Origin: a virus
Virus record (IMG/VR): IMGVR_UViG_3300044727_000048
Coordinates: 1-38,510 of that record
DNA length: 38,510 nucleotides
Direction: 5' to 3' (one strand)
The number at the start of each line of letters is the position of its first letter. Position 1 is the first letter of the stretch. Shown here piece after piece: positions 8,636-38,510 of the stretch. Both the position numbers and the translations under genes were made by a program. The notes beneath the pieces are model-generated. The model was not told the origin of the DNA. It was given only the letters and a program-made list of their open reading frames with translations, and did not search any database.

Positions 8636-9250
8636 CTAATCGTGGGTCAATTGTCTGTATCGCTTCACGCGCGTAACAACGCTGGCAAGCTCGACGTGAA
8701 AATTTGCAACGGCATCGGCTAGCTTGGCGATGTATGCTTCATTGCGGGCGATATTGTAGCGGATCAAGGGTAGCCCAGGCCAAAAGATTGCGAGGTCACA
8801 CCATTGGCGGCCCGTCACCCAGAGCGAACCTTGACACTGTGCCATATGCTCCTTCGGCACATTGCCGGTTAGCATGCGTTCAATCATCAGTTCCGGGAGT
8901 TGCGTTTTGAGTTCGAGCACCCCGGCCGCGCCGATCAGAGCATCAGGCGAGGCACCGCATTGGTGTTCTTCGTCCAAAACAAAGCCGACATTGGTAAGAT
9001 CGTGGTTCGTCATAAACGAATATGCATCTTTCGCTTGTTGCTCCATGGCGATGCCGCGTTCCATGTGATGATTAGTGTAGGTTTCGGCCGGATTGCCGGT
9101 GATTGCCTCCGCTGCAAGCTGCAACATGTATTTGCGGCGCGTCTTGCCTTCGCCCGCCGCGAGAATATCGGAGAAACGGGAGGCGGTGGGAATGCCGCAA
9201 CGAGCTTTTTTCCACACGTCGTCGCCTTGGGTGCATTCGACGATCTTCAT
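8636..9250 (-). CDS. YqaJ / lambda-exonuclease-type viral recombinase
   Basis: The 204-aa protein carries the PD-(D/E)XK nuclease core of YqaJ-like phage exonucleases. GIPTASRF (19-26) and ERGIAMEQQAKD (64-75) come first, then GASPDAL with D103, LELKT with E113 and K115, and a QCQGSLWVTGR helix at about 138-148. Family members digest double-stranded DNA 5' to 3', leaving single strands for an annealing protein. The ATG overlaps the stop of the TOPRIM-ERF gene (ATGA at 9247-9250), so exonuclease and annealase are made as a coupled pair, as in Red-type systems. Confidence 0.9.
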   Translation of the reverse strand: MKIVECTQGDDVWKKARCGIPTASRFSDILAAGEGKTRRKYMLQLAAEAITGNPAETYTNHHMERGIAMEQQAKDAYSFMTNHDLTNVGFVLDEEHQCGASPDALIGAAGVLELKTQLPELMIERMLTGNVPKEHMAQCQGSLWVTGRQWCDLAIFWPGLPLIRYNIARNEAYIAKLADAVANFHVELASVVTRVKRYRQLTHD

Positions 9251-10866
9251 GAGGCGGTTCCTTCCTTTACAGCGAGCTCTTGTACGGCAATTTTGCTGTT
9301 GAGGGCAGTCATGGCGATCTTGAATTGGCTCTGCGTCATGTCCTCTATTTGTTTTATCCGCATAAAGACAAGAAATTTTGCAATATCGGAATTAGATTTT
9401 GTCACCAGGCGGCGGATTGCCTGCGCTTCGGCCTCGTTAATCAAGGGCTCTGGCTGGCGTGTAGCCGCATTGCCGTCGTCATCCTCGCCCACTATGGCGA
9501 TGTTAAAAATCATTGTTTGCAGATATCGGCGGCCGTATGTCATTGACGATCCAAACCCATGCATTGCGGTTTTGTTCGGATTGCCCTTGACGCCAAGGCG
9601 ATCCTCGGGGAGGTCTACCTGAAAACGTCGGCTATCGCCAGCGATGTGCCCCACATCGCATACCATGCGGGTGTGATCGGGCTTTGGGCAATCAACCGTG
9701 CTGAAGGAAAGAAAAAATCCGTTCTCAGTGATGATCGGCGTCAGTATCTTGCAGATTGTTTCTAGACGCGCATATTTCGATCGCGTGTCATTATTCTGTG
9801 CATCCCGCATTATGCGCGGAATAGCGCGCTGCACCGCGACCATGGCGGCGTTGTATGCCTGCCGCTGCTGCTCAAGCTTCTGCGGAAGATAATCAGAAGC
9901 GACTTGCTGCTCAAGCTTCTGCGGAAGATAATCAGAAGCGACTTGCTGCTCAAGCTTCTGCGGAAGATAATCAGAAGCGACTTGCAGCGGAGTGGGCGGT
10001 GTATGTACTTGCTCATTCATATCTGATTTCCTTGGATTGAGAGGGAGCGGCTGCGGCACAAAGTCAGGGGCGGCCTCGATCAATGCAAGAAGGCGTTCGG
10101 TTGAAGCCTGTTCGGTCCTGCTGGCAAGCCAATCCGAAACGTCTGCGCCCTTCGGCATATCGTGCCAATGCTTCGACAGATCAAGCCGCCGCACGCGCTT
10201 GGCAATGCCGAGCGATAGCTTGCAGATAGCCTCGGCATGTGCGTAGCCAGCGGCGTCATTATCATTGAATACGACGATATCGGCGCCGCACAATTGTTTG
10301 CTGTGCGCCTTCGTCCACTTTGCCAGCTTTCCCGGTTCGCTGGCGCCATGCGCGTTGCAGGTGGCGGGAATTCCCATGGCCCAAAGATTGTCTACGTCCT
10401 TCTCGCCTTCGACACAGGCGATCACGCGATACGGGTATATGCCGGAGGGGTTCCTGAATTGAATAGCGCGGTGCACTTCGTCAATGCGGTAGAGACGAAC
10501 ATTACTTTTTATGTCTTTTGATAATCCCTTGCTCCATCCGTCGCCGTTCTTTCGTTCAAGCCAAAATTTCGGCTCGCGGCCGGGCAGGTTGCGCACTTTG
10601 CGGAATAGCACTTTGCCAGCGGCGTTGCGGTAGACATAAGTCTGCAATTCATGCGTCTGCCGCTCCGGGCCGGTCCAGGCGCAATGATTGCACCCCCAGC
10701 GCACGCTCCCATCATTACCGATGGTGACGCCGAGCACTTTCAATTTCTGATGCGCCGGATGGCGTTCGGCTGAGCACTTCGGGCAGATGGTGTAATGGCG
10801 GCCCGGAGCCGTGGTCGCGAGCGCGATCCCATGTCGCTCCAAGAGGTCTGCGGCGCGGATAGGCAT
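9247..10866 (-). CDS. Zn-finger/TOPRIM primase-like protein fused to ERF annealing protein
   Basis: This 539-aa open frame joins two usually separate proteins. Residues 1-270 are a primase-type module: zinc ligands C28, C31, C59 and C62, then a TOPRIM core with VEGEKD (E153) and FNDNDAAG (D202, D204). Residues about 334-470 match the ERF family, with YARLETICKILTPIITENG, then GFGSSMTYGRRYLQ and the following GEDDDG. ERF proteins anneal single strands made by the neighbouring exonuclease. Between them lie three 13-residue repeats VASDYLPQKLEQQ. M283 (ATG at 10020) is preceded by AAGGAAAT and could start ERF alone, so one long and one short product are possible. A missing stop codon, real or by sequencing error, is the alternative. 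Confidence 0.85.
   Translation of the reverse strand: MPIRAADLLERHGIALATTAPGRHYTICPKCSAERHPAHQKLKVLGVTIGNDGSVRWGCNHCAWTGPERQTHELQTYVYRNAAGKVLFRKVRNLPGREPKFWLERKNGDGWSKGLSKDIKSNVRLYRIDEVHRAIQFRNPSGIYPYRVIACVEGEKDVDNLWAMGIPATCNAHGASEPGKLAKWTKAHSKQLCGADIVVFNDNDAAGYAHAEAICKLSLGIAKRVRRLDLSKHWHDMPKGADVSDWLASRTEQASTERLLALIEAAPDFVPQPLPLNPRKSDMNEQVHTPPTPLQVASDYLPQKLEQQVASDYLPQKLEQQVASDYLPQKLEQQRQAYNAAMVAVQRAIPRIMRDAQNNDTRSKYARLETICKILTPIITENGFFLSFSTVDCPKPDHTRMVCDVGHIAGDSRRFQVDLPEDRLGVKGNPNKTAMHGFGSSMTYGRRYLQTMIFNIAIVGEDDDGNAATRQPEPLINEAEAQAIRRLVTKSNSDIAKFLVFMRIKQIEDMTQSQFKIAMTALNSKIAVQELAVKEGTAS
9865..9981 (-). repeat. 39-nt tandem repeat, three units
   Basis: Three in-frame 39-nt units (9865-9903, 9904-9942, 9943-9981), nearly identical, encode VASDYLPQKLEQQ three times just before the ERF domain. 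The identity shows recent expansion, probably by slippage or recombination. Because the unit is a multiple of three, the frame is preserved and the linker simply lengthens. Confidence 0.95.
10018..10055 (-). promoter_or_regulatory. Internal translation start of the ERF half, copy of primase leader
   Basis: Read on the minus strand, the bases before the internal ATG (10020) run GCCGCTCCCTCTCAATCC then AAGGAAATCAGAT. Before the primase ATG (10866) the leader is GCCGTCTCCCTCTCTCTC then AATCCGAGGAACCCTTC. The shared CTCTCAATCC-RAGGAA core and flanks suggest the ERF start retains, or has copied, a gene leader, supporting independent initiation of ERF inside the fused frame. Confidence 0.6.
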
Positions 10867-15060: not shown

Positions 15061-15364
15061 ATGCCTATCCGGGTAACGCACACAAACAAGGGGGCCCACT
15101 GGATGTTGACGCAACGCGCCGAGAACCTGAAAACCGCTTTCGCTGAACACAGCATCCCGTGGCCTAAGGATACGACGATTTTTTGGCACCCAACCGGCCC
15201 GAAAATCAGCTACGGCGGCGGAATGCTCAAGGTTTCGAGCCCCGATCGAGCGGCTGAAGGATTTGGCGCGGGATGCCTTTCATGCTAAACTTTATCGCAA
15301 GAATGGCGGTGATGGCGCGCGGTCGAGCAATATTTTGCTGCCTCTTTCGTGGGTGTTGAAATGA
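15061..15364 (+). pseudogene. Hypothetical gene with an apparent +1 frameshift
   Basis: From ATG 15061 the frame gives MPIRVTHTNKGAHWMLTQRA and continues to KVSSPD, then ends at 15288 in unlike sequence. If one C is dropped from the CCCC at 15240-15243, the frame continues as SSPIERLKDLARDAFHAKLY to SNILLPLSWVLK and ends at TGA 15362-15364, giving a coherent 100-aa protein. Either the gene is broken or the read has one extra C. The final 30 bases (15331-15360) are also found inverted at 24634-24663. Confidence 0.55.
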
Positions 15365-15385: not shown

Positions 15386-15694
15386 ATGGTTGTGCATATG
15401 ACGCCGCTGTATGTGTGGCACAAGTCGATCAGAGTGGCGAATGCGAGAGCCAAGAGAGCGGAGCGGGGCATAAAAAATGGGCCGGTATGGAGTTCGCGGC
15501 GTCCTCACTGGGCACAGAAATCAAAAAAATTGACGGCGGAAGGCCAGGCACAATGGGAGGCGTTTAGGTTGCGGCATGGAATTTATGAGCCAATTAACCG
15601 CGGCAATGGCTTCACAGAGACAAAAAGCAGGCGCAGCGGCAAATCGCAACGCAAAGTCACCCTTCCCAAAGTGACAATATCAGAACCCGCTTAG
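15386..15694 (+). CDS. Basic hypothetical immediately before TerL
   Basis: This 102-aa, strongly basic protein contains WHKSIRVANARAKRAERGIK and RPHWAQKSKKLTAEGQAQWE, and ends directly before the TerL ATG (TAG-ATG). Its place is that of a small terminase subunit, but I see no helix-turn-helix resembling one and it is short, so that role is only a possibility. Bases 15513-15548 inside it reappear inverted at 24664-24699. Confidence 0.5.
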   Translation: MVVHMTPLYVWHKSIRVANARAKRAERGIKNGPVWSSRRPHWAQKSKKLTAEGQAQWEAFRLRHGIYEPINRGNGFTETKSRRSGKSQRKVTLPKVTISEPA

Positions 15695-17053
15695 ATGCCG
15701 GAAATCACGCTGCCGCATAACCAATGGGCTCCGCGCAGGCATCAGATGCCGCTTTGGCGCTATCTGCATGAGGGCGGCAAGCGCGCGGTGGCGATTTGGC
15801 ACAGGCGGGCCGGTAAGGACGAGGTGTCGCTACATCGCACCGCCGTGGCTGCAATGCAGCGTCCCGGAAATTATGTCCATTGCCTCCCGGAATATTTGCA
15901 AGGGCGCCGTGCAATTTGGACTGCGATCAATCCGCATACTGGCAAGCGGCGCATTGACGAGGCGTTTCCCTTTGCCATGAGAACACACACAAATGATGCG
16001 ACCATGTTCCTCCGACTGGCTAACGGTTCAACATGGTCTGTGATCGGCTCGGACCGTTACGATACGTCATTGGTTGGTACATCGGTGGCGGGTATTGTTT
16101 TCTCCGAATATGCCCTGGCTAATCCTAGCGCGTGGGCCTATGCGCGCCCTGTGCTAGAAGAAAATAACGGCTGGGCAATTTTTATTTCAACGCCACGCGG
16201 CAGAAATCACGCATATGAGATGTATAAGCATGCGGGAAAGACATCGGGATGGTTCAGCGAACTTCTCACGGTGCGCGATACCGGAATGCTATCGGAACAA
16301 CAACTAGCGGAAACGCTGGCAGAGTATCGGGCGCTCTATGGAGGCGACCATGGCGACGCCTTCTATAATCAGGAATTTTTTTGCGATTTCAGTGTGGCCT
16401 TGTTCGGTGCGTTTTTCGTCGGCGAAATGGCGCAGGTCCGGCGGGAAGGCCGTGTGATGGAAATCGAGCCCATTGCGGGGCAGCCCGTGCACACCGCCTG
16501 GGACATTGGGCACGATACTAGCATTTGGTGGTGGCAGGCGTGCGGCGGGCAACTCCTTTTGCTCGATCATTGGGCCTCATCGACTGCCGTTCTTGAGTTG
16601 TGCCGCGATGAGATTGTGCAGCGCGAAAAGGAGCGGGGGTGGACGCGCGGTTACGACTACGTGCCGCATGACGCCAAAGTAAAGGAGTGGGGGACCGGCC
16701 GGACCCGCGTCGAAACCATGCGCGCGCTTGGGCTCAATCCCGTATTGGTGCCCCTGGCAACCCTTGAGGACGGCATAAACGCTATTCACCGAACGCTGCC
16801 GTTATGCGTATTTCACCCACGGTGTGAGCTGAGGGGGCTTCCCGCACTTGAACAATATCGACGGCAGTGGGATGATGAGCGGAAGTGCTTCCAGGAATTT
16901 GCGGTTCATGACTGGACCTCGCATGATACCGATGCGTTTCGGTATATGGCACTCAGTTGGCGGCCCGCGCCGCTGATGGTGGCCAAGGACGCGGCGCCTC
17001 GGGGCTGGACGATCCTGCCGCCTGCCGAAGCGCGAAAAGGAATGAGGCTATGA
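15695..17053 (+). CDS. terL: Terminase large subunit
   Basis: The 452-aa packaging motor has a Walker A-like HRRAGKD (36-42), Walker B GIVFSEYA with SE at 137-138, and coupling motif STPRGRNH (165-172). The RNase-H-like nuclease has acidic residues D270 (AWDIGHDTS), D326 (VPHDAK) and D413 (HDTDAFRY). It cuts concatemeric DNA and pumps it into the prohead through the portal. It starts directly after the upstream stop, and its TGA overlaps the portal ATG (ATGA at 17050). Confidence 0.93.
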   Translation: MPEITLPHNQWAPRRHQMPLWRYLHEGGKRAVAIWHRRAGKDEVSLHRTAVAAMQRPGNYVHCLPEYLQGRRAIWTAINPHTGKRRIDEAFPFAMRTHTNDATMFLRLANGSTWSVIGSDRYDTSLVGTSVAGIVFSEYALANPSAWAYARPVLEENNGWAIFISTPRGRNHAYEMYKHAGKTSGWFSELLTVRDTGMLSEQQLAETLAEYRALYGGDHGDAFYNQEFFCDFSVALFGAFFVGEMAQVRREGRVMEIEPIAGQPVHTAWDIGHDTSIWWWQACGGQLLLLDHWASSTAVLELCRDEIVQREKERGWTRGYDYVPHDAKVKEWGTGRTRVETMRALGLNPVLVPLATLEDGINAIHRTLPLCVFHPRCELRGLPALEQYRRQWDDERKCFQEFAVHDWTSHDTDAFRYMALSWRPAPLMVAKDAAPRGWTILPPAEARKGMRL

Positions 17054-19457: not shown

Positions 19458-20926
19458 ACCTGCTAGGCTCTGCCAATTATGACCCGGCCGTTGCGGTGGT
19501 CAAGGCGACTTCGGCCTTGTTGGCAATGACCGCGGTTGATACGACTAACTTGCGCCTGGCGATTACGGTTCCGGCGCACGGCAAGGTGTTGTTCCGTCTC
19601 AAGTGCGCGATAACGGGCGCCACCACGCTGCCGGCCATTCTGCTCGGCGTCATGAACGGTGCGACGGTGCTCGGGCGGCAGGTGCCCACGCAATTCATCG
19701 GCACGGCGAGCGCGGCCACGCAGAACGCGCTCGCCGTTGCGGAGTTTGTCGCGACCGGCCTTACGCCCGGCGCGATGAACGTTGACGCGGCCTACGCGGT
19801 GCAGGTCATTGTTGCTGTGACAAATATCAAATATGGCGGTCCTAACACCAATGCGGGCGCGAACGCTTGGGGCGGCTTCGTATTTGAAGCGTGGGACCCG
19901 GTACAGCCGACCAACTTCGGCGTCCTATCCATCGACGCCAGCGGCCGCGTCGATGTGGGCAAGGTAACGGGCACGGCGCAAACGGCGCGCGACCTCGGCG
20001 CCAGTGTGTTGCTATCGGCCGGAACGGGAGCGGGACAACTCGATTTCACCGCAGGGATAGTCAAGGCCAATGTGACGCAATTGCTCGGAACCGCTTGGCT
20101 GGCCCCGGCCGTGGCCGGAACACCGGACGTGAATACTAAGCAGGTAGGGGGTACGGCGCAGACCGCGCGCGACCTCGGGGCCCAGCTTGATGCCGCGGTG
20201 TCGAGCCGCATGGCTACCTACACGCAACCGACCGGCTTCCTGGCGGCGACATTTCCCGCGGGGACGATCGCCAACACGACCAACATCACGGCCGGGACGA
20301 TCGCGACCGTGACCAACTTGACGAACGCCCCGACCGCGGGCGATCTGACGGCCACCATGAAAACATCCGTGACGACGGCGGCGACGGCGGCGACCCCTAC
20401 CGTCACCTTGGCCGGCGCCGCGGTGCAGGCCATTTGGGACGCGCTCACGACTGCGCTCACGACGGTAGGCAGCATCGGCAAGAGGCTTGCCGACAGCATT
20501 GACGCTACGGTTTCGAGCCGACTGCCAACCGCATCCTATGTTGCGCCGCTCACAGCGGCCGGAACTCGCACTGCGGTTGGGCTTGCCACCGCAAACCTCG
20601 ACACGCAATTGTCATTGATTGACCTTGACGTGCTGACACGCTCGACCTACGCGGGCGGGGATACGGCGGGCACGACTACCTTGCTAACGCGGGTTCCGGG
20701 CATCGTGCAGCCGCAGACCGGGGACAGCTACGCCAGGCTAGGCGCTCCGACAGGTGCCTCGCATGCGGCCGACGTGGCGGCCGTGAAATCGGACAGCGCG
20801 GCAATCAAGTTGCAAACGGACAAGCTGCTATTCAACGGTGTGAGCCAAATTGCCGCTGATATCAAGGCGGTTGTCGGGATGCCGGTATCTGGCGCCGGAA
20901 CGCTTGCGAACCCGTGGGGGCCGTAG
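19454..20926 (+). CDS. Structural protein, Ala/Thr/Gly-rich
   Basis: The 490-aa protein has an N-terminal domain (about 1-160) that looks like a beta-sandwich, with FVFEAWDPV at its end. Modular Thr/Ala-rich repeats follow: TGTAQTARDLGA and GGTAQTARDLGA, AGTIANTTNITAGTIATVTN, then DSYARLGAPTGASHAADVAA. These GTAQT and ARLGAP modules recur in phage structural proteins. It is likely a capsid-decoration, tail or fibre component; the exact place is unknown. The position after portal is unusual for a fibre. Confidence 0.65.
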   Translation: MNLLGSANYDPAVAVVKATSALLAMTAVDTTNLRLAITVPAHGKVLFRLKCAITGATTLPAILLGVMNGATVLGRQVPTQFIGTASAATQNALAVAEFVATGLTPGAMNVDAAYAVQVIVAVTNIKYGGPNTNAGANAWGGFVFEAWDPVQPTNFGVLSIDASGRVDVGKVTGTAQTARDLGASVLLSAGTGAGQLDFTAGIVKANVTQLLGTAWLAPAVAGTPDVNTKQVGGTAQTARDLGAQLDAAVSSRMATYTQPTGFLAATFPAGTIANTTNITAGTIATVTNLTNAPTAGDLTATMKTSVTTAATAATPTVTLAGAAVQAIWDALTTALTTVGSIGKRLADSIDATVSSRLPTASYVAPLTAAGTRTAVGLATANLDTQLSLIDLDVLTRSTYAGGDTAGTTTLLTRVPGIVQPQTGDSYARLGAPTGASHAADVAAVKSDSAAIKLQTDKLLFNGVSQIAADIKAVVGMPVSGAGTLANPWGP

Positions 20927-21163: not shown

Positions 21164-21950
21164 TTTCTATGCATGGTCTGCCCTCGTAGCAGAAGCCGAA
21201 GTGGGCGACGAATGGAAATTACCATGGGCACTTGAAAAAGGGCACTATGCTTTCGGCGGTCCTATTATTCTGCCTCGCGGTGTGGCGATTGTCGGTGAAG
21301 GCGGCATGCGCGCCTCCCTGGTCCGAAATTATCAGGGCAACGGCGAGACATTCCTAGACCTTTCACCCTATGCGCGAATTGAGAATATAGCTATTCAGTC
21401 TGGCAAGCAACTCGCCCCTAGCGGGGTTGCAATTGGCGGGGTCGCGACAAATGCCGATAATGCGCCAATGCAAAACCGATTGCGTAATGTGATGATTTCG
21501 GCATTCGGCACTGGCCCGCAATGGTTCGGTGGGTTGAACCTCGACGCGATCAACGGTGCTCCGCAATATGGAGCGCGTGATATTGTTGTAGATGACCTGA
21601 TCGTGGCGCGGTGCGCTGGATATTGCGTGCGAATGGCGGCGGTGAACGCGAGCAGGTTCAGCAATATGGCAATGGTCGGAGAAACAGAGCAGGGCGAAGT
21701 GTGGTTTACGGGGTCGGAGAACAACCCAAACAACGGCGTTTATTGGAGCGGTGCAAGCGCGGGCAAAATCTGGTGCGAGAATGTGCACTCCGCGAAATTT
21801 GATGTGAGCGGCATTGGTCAGGTCGCAATCAATGACAATTGCGTGGGTGTCACGATTTCTGCGGCCAGCTACAGCGCGGAGCCGCTTTTTGTGCGCGGCC
21901 ATGGTAATTTCGTTTATGCGGAGGGGCGGGAGTGGAAATCGCCACCATAG
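21078..21950 (+). CDS. Beta-helix (pectate-lyase-like) tailspike candidate
   Basis: In this 290-aa protein, a short head (FYAWSALVAEAEVGDEWKLP) leads into GGPIILPRGVAIVGEGGMRA, a classic entry to right-handed beta-helix spikes. Repeated short strands follow: IENIAIQSG, RNVMISAF, RDIVVDDLIV, SRFSNMAMVG, WCENVHSAKFDVSGIG. Such proteins trimerise and bind or degrade surface polysaccharide. AAGGAGG precedes two ATGs (21078 and 21081); the second has better spacing. No catalytic residues can be assigned from sequence alone. Confidence 0.7.
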   Translation: MMIVDLAARGLRGDYLMSDGGLNPRPTDNFYAWSALVAEAEVGDEWKLPWALEKGHYAFGGPIILPRGVAIVGEGGMRASLVRNYQGNGETFLDLSPYARIENIAIQSGKQLAPSGVAIGGVATNADNAPMQNRLRNVMISAFGTGPQWFGGLNLDAINGAPQYGARDIVVDDLIVARCAGYCVRMAAVNASRFSNMAMVGETEQGEVWFTGSENNPNNGVYWSGASAGKIWCENVHSAKFDVSGIGQVAINDNCVGVTISAASYSAEPLFVRGHGNFVYAEGREWKSPP

Positions 21951-23313: not shown

Positions 23314-23339
23314 CCCCACCTAACCCGGAGGACGAACCA

Positions 23340-23705
23340 ATGATGCAAGCTATCACCACGCAACACTATGGCCCACCGACTAGTCACCATCTTAATTTTG
23401 CAGCCGAACTATTGCGCTCCCACGGCTATCGGGTTAGCAATAGCAAGCCGGCCAAGTCGAAGGAAGCCGCGCCGTGGCTTAATTGCCTCGGATTGCCAAT
23501 GTCACCCAGCTACGACCCGAACTATAAAATGAAATATCACACTCCGCCGCTCAAGCGGCAGCAGAATGTAGGCCCCGGTATCAGCCCGGAGAGGTGGGCG
23601 GAAATGTGCAGCGAGGCTCGGGAAAATCTGGCCGGCATCGTGGCCGATCCGACAACCGAGCCCCACGCTGACAAAGCTACTGTCGAGCGGAGGGTGGAAC
23701 AATGA
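23340..23705 (+). CDS. Hypothetical protein (121 aa) with a transplanted 3' end
   Basis: ATG 23340 (MMQAITTQHYGPPTSHHLNF) follows CGGAGGACGAACC. Function is unknown. The last codons (ATVERRVEQ) lie in 23677-23711, an exact inverted copy of 28694-28728 inside another gene, so the C-terminus may be recently acquired. The ribosome site and start (23324-23343) are themselves copied in inverted form at 24583-24602. Confidence 0.6.
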   Translation: MMQAITTQHYGPPTSHHLNFAAELLRSHGYRVSNSKPAKSKEAAPWLNCLGLPMSPSYDPNYKMKYHTPPLKRQQNVGPGISPERWAEMCSEARENLAGIVADPTTEPHADKATVERRVEQ

Positions 23706-23711
23706 AGCCTG
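23677..23711. repeat. 35-nt inverted repeat with 28694-28728
   Basis: Exact reverse complement of 28694-28728, about 5 kb away. At 28.7 kb the segment encodes ASLFHPPLDS of an intact protein; here it forms the end of gene 23340 and the start of a 21-codon frame. Confidence 0.95.
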
Positions 23712-23767
23712 GGACACTCGTCACCGACCGCTCAGACAGCAGCCTTCTGGAATGGCCGGGAGCGTAA
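23702..23767 (+). CDS. Possible 21-aa peptide
   Basis: The ATG overlaps the previous stop (ATGA) with GGAGGGTGG just upstream. The frame MKPGTLVTDRSDSSLLEWPG ends two codons later. It is composed largely of two repeat segments (23677-23711 and 23731-23760), so its protein may be accidental; the ribosome site is good. Confidence 0.3.
   Translation: MKPGTLVTDRSDSSLLEWPGA
23731..23760. repeat. 30-nt segment, inverted copy at 24604-24633
   Basis: Exact 30-base reverse-complement match; bases on both sides do not match. This is one of the four pieces making up the composite block 24583-24699. Confidence 0.95.
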
Positions 23768-24339: not shown

Positions 24340-24579
24340 ATGGCGAAACGAATTGAGGATATACGTAGCTTGTGCCGATCCTACACGAACACAACCGTGC
24401 GGATCATGAGCCATATTGCCCACGATAAGACTGTACCGCCCAACGTGCGGATTTCTGCGATTGAGGCCCTATGGGCGCGCGGATGGGGCCGGCCGCAGCA
24501 AGAGGTCAAGCACACCGGCGCCGGCGATGACGACGACATCAGGATCACGATCCGCAACATTGTTGAAGAACGAAAGTGA
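24340..24579 (+). CDS. Conserved small phage protein (79 aa)
   Basis: The product begins MAKRIEDIRSLCRSYTNTTV, continues with a helix PNVRISAIEALWARGWGRPQ and ends DDDDIRITIRNIVEERK. This helix, the RGWGRP turn and the acidic DIRI-I tail recur in rhizobial proteins of phage origin, sometimes near terminase genes; function is not established. The composite repeat block starts 3 bases after its stop. Confidence 0.65.
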   Translation: MAKRIEDIRSLCRSYTNTTVRIMSHIAHDKTVPPNVRISAIEALWARGWGRPQQEVKHTGAGDDDDIRITIRNIVEERK

Positions 24580-24582
24580 GCT

Positions 24583-24699
24583 TCATTGGTTCGTCCTCCG
24601 GGGCCCGGCCATTCCAGAAGGCTGCTGTCTGAGTTCAACACCCACGAAAGAGGCAGCAAAATACCTGGCCTTCCGCCGTCAATTTTTTTGATTTCTGTG
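24583..24699. repeat. Composite block of four abutting inverted segments
   Basis: 24583-24602 is the reverse complement of 23324-23343 (20 nt). One extra base follows. 24604-24633 is the reverse complement of 23731-23760 (30 nt), 24634-24663 of 15331-15360 (30 nt), and 24664-24699 of 15513-15548 (36 nt). All four matches are exact, all are inverted, and they join with no gap and no evident microhomology. The block fills nearly the whole space between the stop of 24340-24579 and the recognisable start of the zinc-finger protein. Confidence 0.93.
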
Positions 24700-24957
24700 A
24701 GCTCGATCGACCGTTACGGGGCGATTGACCCCTGCCCAGCGTGCGGGCGCGACATGACGTTGGTTGGGCGTCTGCATTATTGCGTGGGAAAATCGTCCGC
24801 TCTTGCAGAAAAGTCTAACACCCAGGCGGCGGAAAAGTCTAACACGTCGGTCAGGCTCGACAAGGCTGCGTACCGGCGTGGCAGGTTCGATAAGGTTGCG
24901 TACCAGCGTGAGTACATGCGGCGGCGGCGGTGTGCCGAGAGAGGTGGGCGGCAATGA
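24697..24957 (+). CDS. Zinc-finger protein with short tandem repeats
   Basis: Recognisable sequence begins at SSIDRYGAIDPCPACGRDM; CPAC with HYC downstream makes a probable zinc ribbon. Two near repeats AEKSNT follow, then LDKAAYRRGR and FDKVAYQREY, and the basic tail MRRRRCAERGG, the DNA-binding-type tail of small phage zinc proteins. The start is uncertain. GTG 24697 is formed at the edge of the composite block, and the frame also stays open upstream to TTG 24586. The original start may have been lost to the block. Confidence 0.5.
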   Translation: MSSIDRYGAIDPCPACGRDMTLVGRLHYCVGKSSALAEKSNTQAAEKSNTSVRLDKAAYRRGRFDKVAYQREYMRRRRCAERGGRQ

Positions 24958-25178
24958 CCAAGCAGCACGACTACATCACTGTTCTCCGTCGCCGTTGGTG
25001 CCGTAATTGCAACACGTTCCAGACGTGGAATGGGCGGCGATGGTGCGACGATCCGCTGCTCATTGGCTCTTGGCCTTGGGGTTACGACACAACGAAGGCC
25101 GAATGCCCTAACAACAGAGGCACAGAATTGACCCTGGCAAGGATGGCCGATCATCCGCCAGACCTGCGAGAGACATGA
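24954..25178 (+). CDS. Small Trp/Cys zinc-ribbon-like protein (74 aa)
   Basis: Coupled by ATGA to the preceding gene. The core RRRWCRNCNTFQTWNGRRWC carries a CxxC and a further Cys; ECPNN supplies another. Bases 24995-25077 are duplicated exactly at 25592-25674. Nucleic-acid binding is plausible, function unknown. Confidence 0.55.
   Translation: MTKQHDYITVLRRRWCRNCNTFQTWNGRRWCDDPLLIGSWPWGYDTTKAECPNNRGTELTLARMADHPPDLRET
24995..25077 (+). repeat. 83-nt direct repeat, copy 1 (partner 25592-25674)
   Basis: Exact 83-base match 597 bases apart, same orientation. Copy 1 is read in the zinc-ribbon frame. Confidence 0.97.
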
Positions 25179-25389: not shown

Positions 25390-25773
25390 ATGGAACAAGA
25401 ATGCCTGGAGTTCTGCTTATCCTTTCGGCCGGAGGGCGAATTTTGGAACGCGTATGTCGCCAGGCGCAACTCAACGGACGGAGCCATCTTGATAGGTTCA
25501 ATCGTGTTGGCTGCGGCGGAGGACAAGTTGATCCGGGCGGAGTTTGTGGCCTTGATGAAGAGTGCCACGACCGCGAGAATTAAGGCCCTTTTTGGTGCCG
25601 TAATTGCAACACGTTCCAGACGTGGAATGGGCGGCGATGGTGCGACGATCCGCTGCTCATTGGCTCTTGGCCTTACACCGACGGTAAGGTTCATTGGCAA
25701 TCTAAACCCCGACGACGAGCAGGCGGAGGCCGTGGATGAGCAACACCGACTGGATGCGCAAGCTAGCGGATGA
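25390..25773 (+). CDS. Conserved hypothetical with out-of-frame acquired tail
   Basis: ATG 25390 (MEQECLEFCLSFRPEGEFWN) follows GAGGGG; ATG 25378 is an alternative. Residues 1-68, up to LMKSATTARIKALFG, resemble a family of short phage hypotheticals. From there the sequence is the second copy of the 83-nt repeat, read in a different frame than in the zinc-ribbon gene, giving a new tail AVIATRSRRGMGG onward to 25773. The tail overlaps the start of the next gene. The N-terminal part is likely functional; the tail is probably neutral or novel. Confidence 0.55.
   Translation: MEQECLEFCLSFRPEGEFWNAYVARRNSTDGAILIGSIVLAAAEDKLIRAEFVALMKSATTARIKALFGAVIATRSRRGMGGDGATIRCSLALGLTPTVRFIGNLNPDDEQAEAVDEQHRLDAQASG
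25592..25674 (+). repeat. 83-nt direct repeat, copy 2
   Basis: Identical to 24995-25077. In the original zinc-ribbon frame it remains open and continues with YTDGKVHWQSKPRRRAGGG to a TGA overlapping ATG 25736, but there is a TAA at 25581 and no start codon before it, so that frame is a fragment here. Confidence 0.97.
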
Positions 25774-26632
25774 TCCTGGCTACACGCACCCAGGCCTTGA
25801 CCCTGTTGCGGAGGCGATTGCTGAACGACTGCGTGCGGCTGGAACGGGGGCCGCCAACATTGCCGGTCGCCTTGGTGATTTAGCGGACACAGGCGGGGCG
25901 CTGCTCCGAGGCGACCCGAGATTTGCTGTCACACCGGAGATACCTGGCCAGCGGTCAGAGATTGACGACTGGCGGCAAGACCAGATCAATCATGAATTAG
26001 CCGCTCGTTCTGCGGGCATGGCCTATCATACGACCGGTTATGGAACGATGGGAGCAGCTCTGGGACGCAGCGGTCTCGGTGTGGGAGGTGGCAAGGTAGT
26101 CACGCCCGCGCCGCCGCCGGCGGTCATGAGTGCAGAGGATTTGGCTGTCGCGGTCGCGAGCAAATGGAGCCCGCAAGTTGCGGCACAGGCGGCTGCGCCC
26201 GCGTTGCGGCAGCTCGATCAGGCGCGGCTGGCAGCGGCCGCGGCCCGCGGCAAGCAAGCGGTGTCTGAGGCAAATTTTAGGCTTGGCCCAGAACCGACAC
26301 GGCAAGCGTTTGAAGCATGGGCCCTGCGGCCGATCGGCGGAGGTGGCAAGGTAGTCACGCCCGCGCCAAGAGCCGCGCCTGCGGCGATGGCCGAGGTTGC
26401 AGCTCCGTCCGGTACTAAGCTTGGCCCGGAACCGTCGCCGAATGCTGAAAAAGTTATGCAGCAGAACGCACAAAGCAGCCGCAACGATTATGGTGCATGG
26501 CGGGAAGAACTTGACCGTTTAAAAATGCCCGTCAACGACAATCTGATCGACATCTTGCGCAAATACGGCCTAGCCGGGGCGGCTCCGACTGGCATGGGGG
26601 CGCTGGCATCGCAGAGCGATTATCAGGAATAG
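25736..26632 (+). CDS. Ala/Gly-rich structural or accessory protein
   Basis: This 298-aa protein begins MSNTDWMRKLADDPGYTHPG and has a helical Ala-rich body without known motifs. GGGKVVTPAP occurs twice (a 29-nt exact DNA repeat at 26084-26112 and 26339-26367) and LGPEP occurs twice, so a segment of about 85 codons looks duplicated and diverged. Upstream of the scaffold gene, a virion or assembly role is possible. Confidence 0.5.
   Translation: MSNTDWMRKLADDPGYTHPGLDPVAEAIAERLRAAGTGAANIAGRLGDLADTGGALLRGDPRFAVTPEIPGQRSEIDDWRQDQINHELAARSAGMAYHTTGYGTMGAALGRSGLGVGGGKVVTPAPPPAVMSAEDLAVAVASKWSPQVAAQAAAPALRQLDQARLAAAAARGKQAVSEANFRLGPEPTRQAFEAWALRPIGGGGKVVTPAPRAAPAAMAEVAAPSGTKLGPEPSPNAEKVMQQNAQSSRNDYGAWREELDRLKMPVNDNLIDILRKYGLAGAAPTGMGALASQSDYQE
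26084..26112 (+). repeat. 29-nt direct repeat (partner 26339-26367)
   Basis: Exact 29-base match, 255 bases (85 codons) apart, in the same frame of gene 25736-26632, encoding GGGKVVTPAP. Confidence 0.95.
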
Positions 26633-28607: not shown

Positions 28608-29014
28608 CACAAGAGGATCAGACGATAATGACGACATGTACGTGCAATCAGCCCGACGCGAGCGATCTGCGCAGCAGAGCAGAGAACACCTTTCAGGCTT
28701 CATTGTTCCACCCTCCGCTCGACAGTAGGCGCTTCGTTGGTCTGATGAATTGGCTTAACACGCCTGTTCCGCTCACGACGCTCACGCTTGCCAAGCTGTT
28801 GGCAGCATGCGAACTCGTTCGCGACGTTCCGCCCGATCCGCTCCATGGTGCGCGTATCCTTTACGCGCACGAGAACATGCTGGATGCGGCGCGTCGGCTC
28901 GCGGACGCGGCGAATGGGCGCCTAATCGTTCTGCGCAGCCGCCTTGTGCCGCCTGGACACATCGTTGCCATGGATGGCGACCGCGTGGCTTGCGTCATAG
29001 GACCGGAGAATTAA
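28604..29014 (+). CDS. Conserved hypothetical (136 aa)
   Basis: The ATG is coupled to the preceding stop. The body AENTFQASLFHPPLDSRRF followed by LNTPVPLTTLTLAKLLAACE and DPLHGARILYAHENMLDAAR reads as a regular globular protein that ends GDRVACVIGPEN. Function is unknown. It contains the 28694-28728 segment found inverted at 23677-23711; coherence here suggests this is the original copy. Confidence 0.6.
   Translation: MTQEDQTIMTTCTCNQPDASDLRSRAENTFQASLFHPPLDSRRFVGLMNWLNTPVPLTTLTLAKLLAACELVRDVPPDPLHGARILYAHENMLDAARRLADAANGRLIVLRSRLVPPGHIVAMDGDRVACVIGPEN
28694..28728. repeat. 35-nt inverted repeat with 23677-23711
   Basis: Exact reverse complement of 23677-23711; see that entry. Confidence 0.95.
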
Positions 29015-37873: not shown

Positions 37874-38510
37874 ATGAGCAAGGGCAGCGCCCCAACTCCG
37901 CCCAATCCGATCGCGACGGCCGGAGCGCAGACAAGCTCGAATGTGAGCACTGCGGTCGCGAACGCATTTCTGAACAACACGAACCAAGTCACGCCGCTTG
38001 GATCATTGAGCTACAATCCCACGGGGACCTATTCCTTTGCCGATCCTAGTACTGGATCGATTTACAACATTCCGCGCTTTACGGCGACGCAGGAATTGAC
38101 GCCGGAAGAGCAGGCAATTCAGGAACAGTCGCAGTCTGCAAAATTCAATCTGGCCAACCTGTCAAGCACGCAGAGCGGGCGCATTGGCAGTATTCTCGGA
38201 AATCCGTTCGATCTGGGCGGTGCGCCACCTCCCGGCTCGCTGCCAGATTTCGGCAATTATTCGGCAATCTCGGATATTGGCGGCAATAACAATCTCGGCT
38301 GGCAACAGACCGATTTTGGCGATGCGGGAAGACCTCAGAGCACATTTGGTGATGCTGGCCAGCAGCAAAGGACATTTGATGACGTTGGCGAGCAGCAAAG
38401 GACATTTGATGATGTTGGCGGTCCGCAACGGTGGGCGCCAGGCTCAAGCGGATACTTGTTCAATATCGCGAACAACCAAAACATGCCGATTGTGGGAAGT
38501 TACGGACCCT
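37874..38510 (+). CDS. S74-chaperone virion protein, 5' part (continues at 1-1316)
   Basis: The ATG follows AAAAGGAAAGTC. MSKGSAPTPPNPIATAGAQT leads to NQVTPLGSLSYNPTGTYSFA, a start typical of podoviral internal or fibre-like virion proteins, and then TPEEQAIQEQSQSAKFNLAN. Near 38325-38430 short repeats TFGDAGQQQR, TFDDVGEQQR and TFDDVGGPQR occur. The frame continues across 38447/1 without change to the stop at 1316, for 629 aa in total. The last 63 bases duplicate 1-63. Confidence 0.85.
   Translation, partial: MSKGSAPTPPNPIATAGAQTSSNVSTAVANAFLNNTNQVTPLGSLSYNPTGTYSFADPSTGSIYNIPRFTATQELTPEEQAIQEQSQSAKFNLANLSSTQSGRIGSILGNPFDLGGAPPPGSLPDFGNYSAISDIGGNNNLGWQQTDFGDAGRPQSTFGDAGQQQRTFDDVGEQQRTFDDVGGPQRWAPGSSGYLFNIANNQNMPIVGSYGP
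38448..38510. repeat. Terminal direct repeat, right copy
   Basis: Identical to bases 1-63; see that entry. Confidence 0.95.

Follow-up and report, generated by a model that had tools for sequence, protein, structure and literature searches.

Mosaic joins are a well-known hallmark of phage genomes, and whether these arise by homology-based or illegitimate events is debated. Filler DNA, that is, a junction patched with short exact copies, is a type of scar well known in plants and yeast, and a phage is an unusual place for it; no report of a comparable phage filler scar was found in the literature searched, the coverage of which was partial. In maize p2/p1, the filler left by nonhomologous end joining (NHEJ) comprises 50 bp from two sites and one unaccounted base (PMC2686159). 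In yeast, inverted copies of ~5-34 bp are inserted at breaks, one end of which is closed by NHEJ (PMC11724301). Bacterial Ku/LigD repair, as described for Rhizobium etli and Sinorhizobium meliloti, needs no homology and occasionally inserts one base (PMC10932983); the S. meliloti products at an I-SceI break, as cited in that paper, were small deletions and, once, a one-bp insertion. Finally, inverted joins of a single genome are produced by the T7 replisome and in multiple displacement amplification (PMC9484634).

The locus described here lies in a 38,510-nt contig of a soil phage (the whole of this stretch is referred to as the window) and shares some features with each of these systems. Like the maize filler, it holds tens of exactly copied bases from at least two sites, abutting at a presumptive breakpoint and accompanied by one unaccounted base; unlike the maize event, which involved a large deletion and a gene fusion, it shows a 4-7 bp duplication and all of its pieces are inverted. 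The inverted orientation and the size of the pieces recall the yeast insertions, whereas yeast foldback copies use an inverted microhomology beside the break and the phage sources lie 0.8-9 kb away, with four copies chained. Relatives of this phage are associated with rhizobia, in keeping with the Ku/LigD systems, for which nevertheless mostly small deletions are reported (no chained capture of fragments was found in PMC10932983). The T7 and amplification chimeras are likewise inverted, but they usually consist of two long arms made in vitro and not of four short pieces. A fresh, fully readable scar with exact donors would demonstrate that broken phage DNA can be mended with a chain of fragments from the phage's own genome, and it poses a testable question, namely whether the Ku/LigD system of soil alphaproteobacteria or a strand-switching replisome writes new sequence into phages.

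Anatomy of the block

The block at positions 24583-24699 is made up of four abutting stretches, each a perfect reverse complement of a distant segment of the phage genome (features are given on the + strand unless stated otherwise). Segment 1 (24583-24602, 20 nt) copies 23324-23343, the ribosome site and start codon of gene 23340-23705, and segment 2 (24604-24633, 30 nt) copies 23731-23760, just 3' of the same gene. Segment 3 (24634-24663, 30 nt) is drawn from 15331-15360, between an ORF at 15061-15288 and gene 15386, while segment 4 (24664-24699, 36 nt) is drawn from 15513-15548, within gene 15386-15694 and just upstream of the terminase large subunit gene terL (15695-17053). The sources thus form two local pairs, at 23.3/23.7 kb and 15.3/15.5 kb. 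A single G at 24603, between segments 1 and 2, is the only base of the block without a source. A preliminary description of this DNA had reported the four exact inverted matches, and both a self-match search and direct reading found its coordinates right to the base; the both-strand self-comparison that it proposed recovers all four and, in addition, an 83-nt and a 35-nt exact self-copy (see below).

The block is bounded on both sides by a 7-bp direct repeat, GTGAGCT, and the total insertion amounts to 121 bp. The left copy (24576-24582) includes both the stop codon of gene 24340 (TGA, 24577-24579) and what was formerly the GTG start codon of a zinc-finger-like gene, and the right copy (24697-24703) was identified by direct reading. 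By our own estimate, the chance of such a repeat falling at the exact block ends is ~6e-5 (4 to the power -7). Microhomology amounts to 0 nt at the entry join and at two of the internal joins, and the third internal join carries the added G. The earlier statement that the pieces meet without microhomology and with one extra base is borne out at these four joins; at the exit, a 3-nt microhomology is one possible reading of the GTG that ends segment 4. Microhomology is therefore present at no more than one of the five joins, where an MMBIR-type process would show it at most switch points. Exact copies of at least two separate sites, with little or no microhomology and an occasional untemplated base, are what characterizes complex filler DNA.

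Chance does not account for these matches, as the preliminary description had already argued from their adjacency. In 40 third-order Markov genomes modeled on the window, the longest inverted match between sites more than 150 nt apart was 17 nt. Among 90 relatives and related loci (1.46 Mb, or 20.6 times the pair space of the window) there were two inverted matches of 18 nt and none longer, and in a second control set (80 loci, 0.88 Mb, picked by capsid protein and sharing few contigs with the first) the longest was a palindrome-like repeat of 23 nt. No inverted copy of at least 24 nt comparable to those of the window was thus present in ~2.3 Mb of relatives. The window itself holds four inverted matches of 30-36 nt and two of 20 nt. 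One of the latter, an exact pair between two coding regions (20602-20621 and 21826-21845), is possibly an older patch. In a scan for abutting matches, the three joins of the block formed the only all-inverted chain with distant sources.

The presumptive empty site and other rearrangements

When the 121 bp are taken out, the resulting site reads ...GAACGAAAGTGAGCTCGATCGACC..., and the TGA of gene 24340 overlaps the GTG that opens the zinc-finger gene as MSSIDRYGAIDPCPACGRDM..., restoring a GTGA stop/start overlap. When the block is present, the coupled GTG runs into an 18-codon dead end, and the zinc-finger-like (CxxC) gene is read as an ORF at 24697-24957; an ORF can be read there with and without the block. 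Because the overlap returns on removal of the 121 bp, the block, as far as sequence can tell, is a recent insertion and neither a gene nor an original gap. The zinc-finger gene was probably coupled to gene 24340 through the GTGA overlap, and the effect of the insertion was probably to uncouple its translation, with no function of the block needed. The block had previously been described as filling the gap between the stop codon and the zinc-finger region; an insertion into a stop/start overlap that had no gap is a better account. The restored overlap and the flanking repeat also support the direction of copying, from the four loci into the block. The reverse, one block feeding four loci, was rejected as it needs four copies tiling the block without overlap. 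Two further candidates were set aside: a coding insert (the block is open in the zinc-finger frame, but ~40 open codons are not unusual) and a transposon-type insertion, for which a 4-7 bp duplication is present but the ends, TCATTG/CTGTG, are not inverted repeats.

The tested junction and the empty site gave no exact-pattern match in IMG/VR (weak as a sign of absence), and blastn against the phage collection returned no close relatives of the region. An IMG/VR scan gave no homologs of genes 24340, 28604 and 23340 and only a 30-aa partial match for the zinc-finger gene 24697; for gene 28604, tblastn likewise found nothing in phages. Gene 24340-24579 is terS-like by position and belongs to phrog_15261 (unknown function). 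Its relatives lie just upstream of terL (5-1432 bp) in all 46 loci in which terL could be placed, whereas here the gene lies 7.3 kb downstream of terL, a gene order absent among those relatives. This displacement shows that a rearrangement took place. The donor sites of segments 3 and 4 are in the stretch just upstream of terL, that is, at the ancestral address of gene 24340. In one related locus (L006), a relative of the nearby gene 25390 also sits between the gene 24340 relative and terL.

Gene 25390-25773 contains the longest of the other self-copies, an 83-nt exact direct copy (25592-25674) of 24995-25077, the likely source, which lies inside a zinc-ribbon-like gene (24954-25178). The copy alters the final part of gene 25390, whose overlap with gene 25736 it lengthens, and the similarity of gene 25390 to its counterpart in L006 (just before terL there) ends at the copy. 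With the 83 nt removed, gene 25390 runs on to a TGA stop that forms an ATGA overlap with the start of gene 25736, and its protein tail is restored; because of this restored overlap, the 83-nt copy looks like an insertion, too. The 35-nt pair comprises 28694-28728 and its exact reverse complement at 23677-23711 (the end of gene 23340 and the ribosome site of a short ORF). Both of these loci read through with or without the copy, so either copying direction fits. All of the copies are still exact, which points to recent events. Taken together with the displacement of the terS-like gene, the 83-nt copy and the 35-nt pair suggest that the genome was broken and patched at least once. It is tempting to infer that the block, the 83-nt copy and the relocation belong to one episode; the relocation may differ in age. 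An exact 29-nt direct repeat (26084-26112 and 26339-26367) was also observed, in frame, inside gene 25736-26632.

Proposed end joining and its alternatives

We tentatively favor, at somewhat short of even confidence, the reading of the block as complex filler DNA left where a double-strand break was mis-repaired, likely by host Ku/LigD end joining. The ancestor would have read ...AAAGTGAGCTCGATC..., and a staggered break at the palindrome GAGCTC would have left AGCT overhangs that were filled in and hence duplicated. Four short pieces of the phage genome (20-36 bp), perhaps released by nuclease attack on the phage DNA, would then have been joined in to close the gap, with hardly any base pairing at the joins and a single untemplated G. 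The join profile (no microhomology, an added G and an exit that is either filled AGCT or GTG) is that of end joining with fill-in. The joining machine is more likely to be of host origin because HMM searches detected no Ku, ATP-dependent ligase or family A polymerase (DNA_pol_A) in the phage genome. The recombination functions that the phage does encode are an ERF annealase fused to a primase-like part, a lambda-exonuclease-like protein and an SF2 helicase. The annealase gene (9247-10866, - strand) combines a primase/Toprim-like N-terminal part with the ERF-type annealase in one protein, and the lambda-exonuclease-like gene (8636-9250) adjoins it.

Ku/LigD end joining is common in rhizobia. 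Relatives of this phage either infect alphaproteobacteria or reside in them (Rhizobium phage RHph_I3_18, Bradyrhizobium phage ppBjS10J-1 and Rhizobium sp. J15), and Rhizobium sp. J15, which holds the terL of one relative, has four Ku and three LigD-type primase-polymerase matches. Because the hosts of its relatives are alphaproteobacteria, with Ku/LigD in J15, host end joining is plausible for this phage. Three features of the block argue against it: every one of the four pieces is inverted (under random ligation, 1 in 16), their sources form two local pairs, and the exit join is readable as a 3-nt microhomology; the first two of these are more in line with template switching than with free fragments. 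In addition, no case of bacterial NHEJ capturing multiple short fragments was found in the literature searched.

Serial template switching by a polymerase is the next explanation, unlikely by our assessment and yet the most credible of the alternatives. A stalled 3' end at 24582 would have moved to the opposite strand, copied 20, 30, 30 and 36 nt in turn and returned via the GTG of GTGAGCT, with no fragments being ligated. Template switching usually uses a few matching bases, and the zero microhomology at the entry and two internal joins, together with the extra base at another, speaks against it, as do moves of 8-9 kb between the sources at 23-24 kb and those at 15 kb. On the other hand, the templates are local and consistent in polarity: all four pieces are inverted, as expected when one strand keeps invading the opposite one, and the jump has the same direction within each of the two source pairs. 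The 3-nt exit microhomology and the resulting 7-bp repeat also fit, and precedents exist both in the short inverted templated insertions of yeast (5-34 bp; PMC11724301) and in the strand switching of the T7 replisome in vitro (PMC9484634). Blunt joining of fragments and repeated template switching, both named in the preliminary description, remain the two leading explanations. A third origin named there, placement of the copies by the phage annealing/exonuclease pair, would call on the ERF-type annealase and the lambda-exonuclease-like protein described above.

We consider it rather improbable that the block is a technical product, made by amplification or library chimerism or by misassembly of a metagenome contig. 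The sequence is a single virus contig with a 63-bp end repeat and has no second copy in IMG/VR, and amplification chimeras are mainly inverted joins (PMC9484634); all of this would fit an artifact. Such chimeras are, however, mostly two long inverted arms and not four pieces of 20-36 nt within 117 bp, the 83-nt and 35-nt copies sit elsewhere, and relatives from the same type of data show nothing of the kind. The presumptive empty sites, moreover, restore the GTGA and ATGA overlaps, which argues that the flanks at both sites were once joined and that sequence was added later, biologically or in vitro.

In a more far-reaching reading, which appears quite improbable, an active process of the phage or its host repeatedly takes up stretches of phage DNA 20-36 nt long, or RNA copies of them, and installs them inverted in the 24-29 kb region; if true, this would constitute a recurrent source of new sequence in the genome and not a single accident.

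A functional antisense RNA, which had been thought conceivable, is still less probable. A rightward transcript of the block would pair with the ribosome site of gene 23340 and with transcripts near terL, and segment 1 is exactly complementary to that ribosome site and the start codon. Three of the four pieces, however, cover no start site and the block is not conserved. No sigma-70-like promoter was found on either strand of 23-26 kb (with the sigma-70 consensus as the only model), the terminator count is near chance, and neither an Rfam family for the block nor a copy of the junction in IMG/VR was found. Segment 1 could have an accidental antisense effect on gene 23340; a selected regulator is without support. 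The least probable candidate, off-target integration by a CRISPR adaptation complex, was suggested by spacer-like piece lengths (30, 30, 35 and 36) and was rejected on flanks and spacing, given that one piece is 20 nt and one copy 83 nt, the pieces abut without repeats, no PAM-like motif is common to the flanks of the five sources and the duplication measures 4-7 bp.

Two genome-wide features were observed in addition. The BglII, BamHI, BclI and XhoI sites (AGATCT, GGATCC, TGATCA and CTCGAG) are absent from the 38.5 kb, which suggests restriction avoidance. The 63-bp end repeat occupies 1-63 and 38448-38510, and because of it the contig is probably a complete circular assembly.
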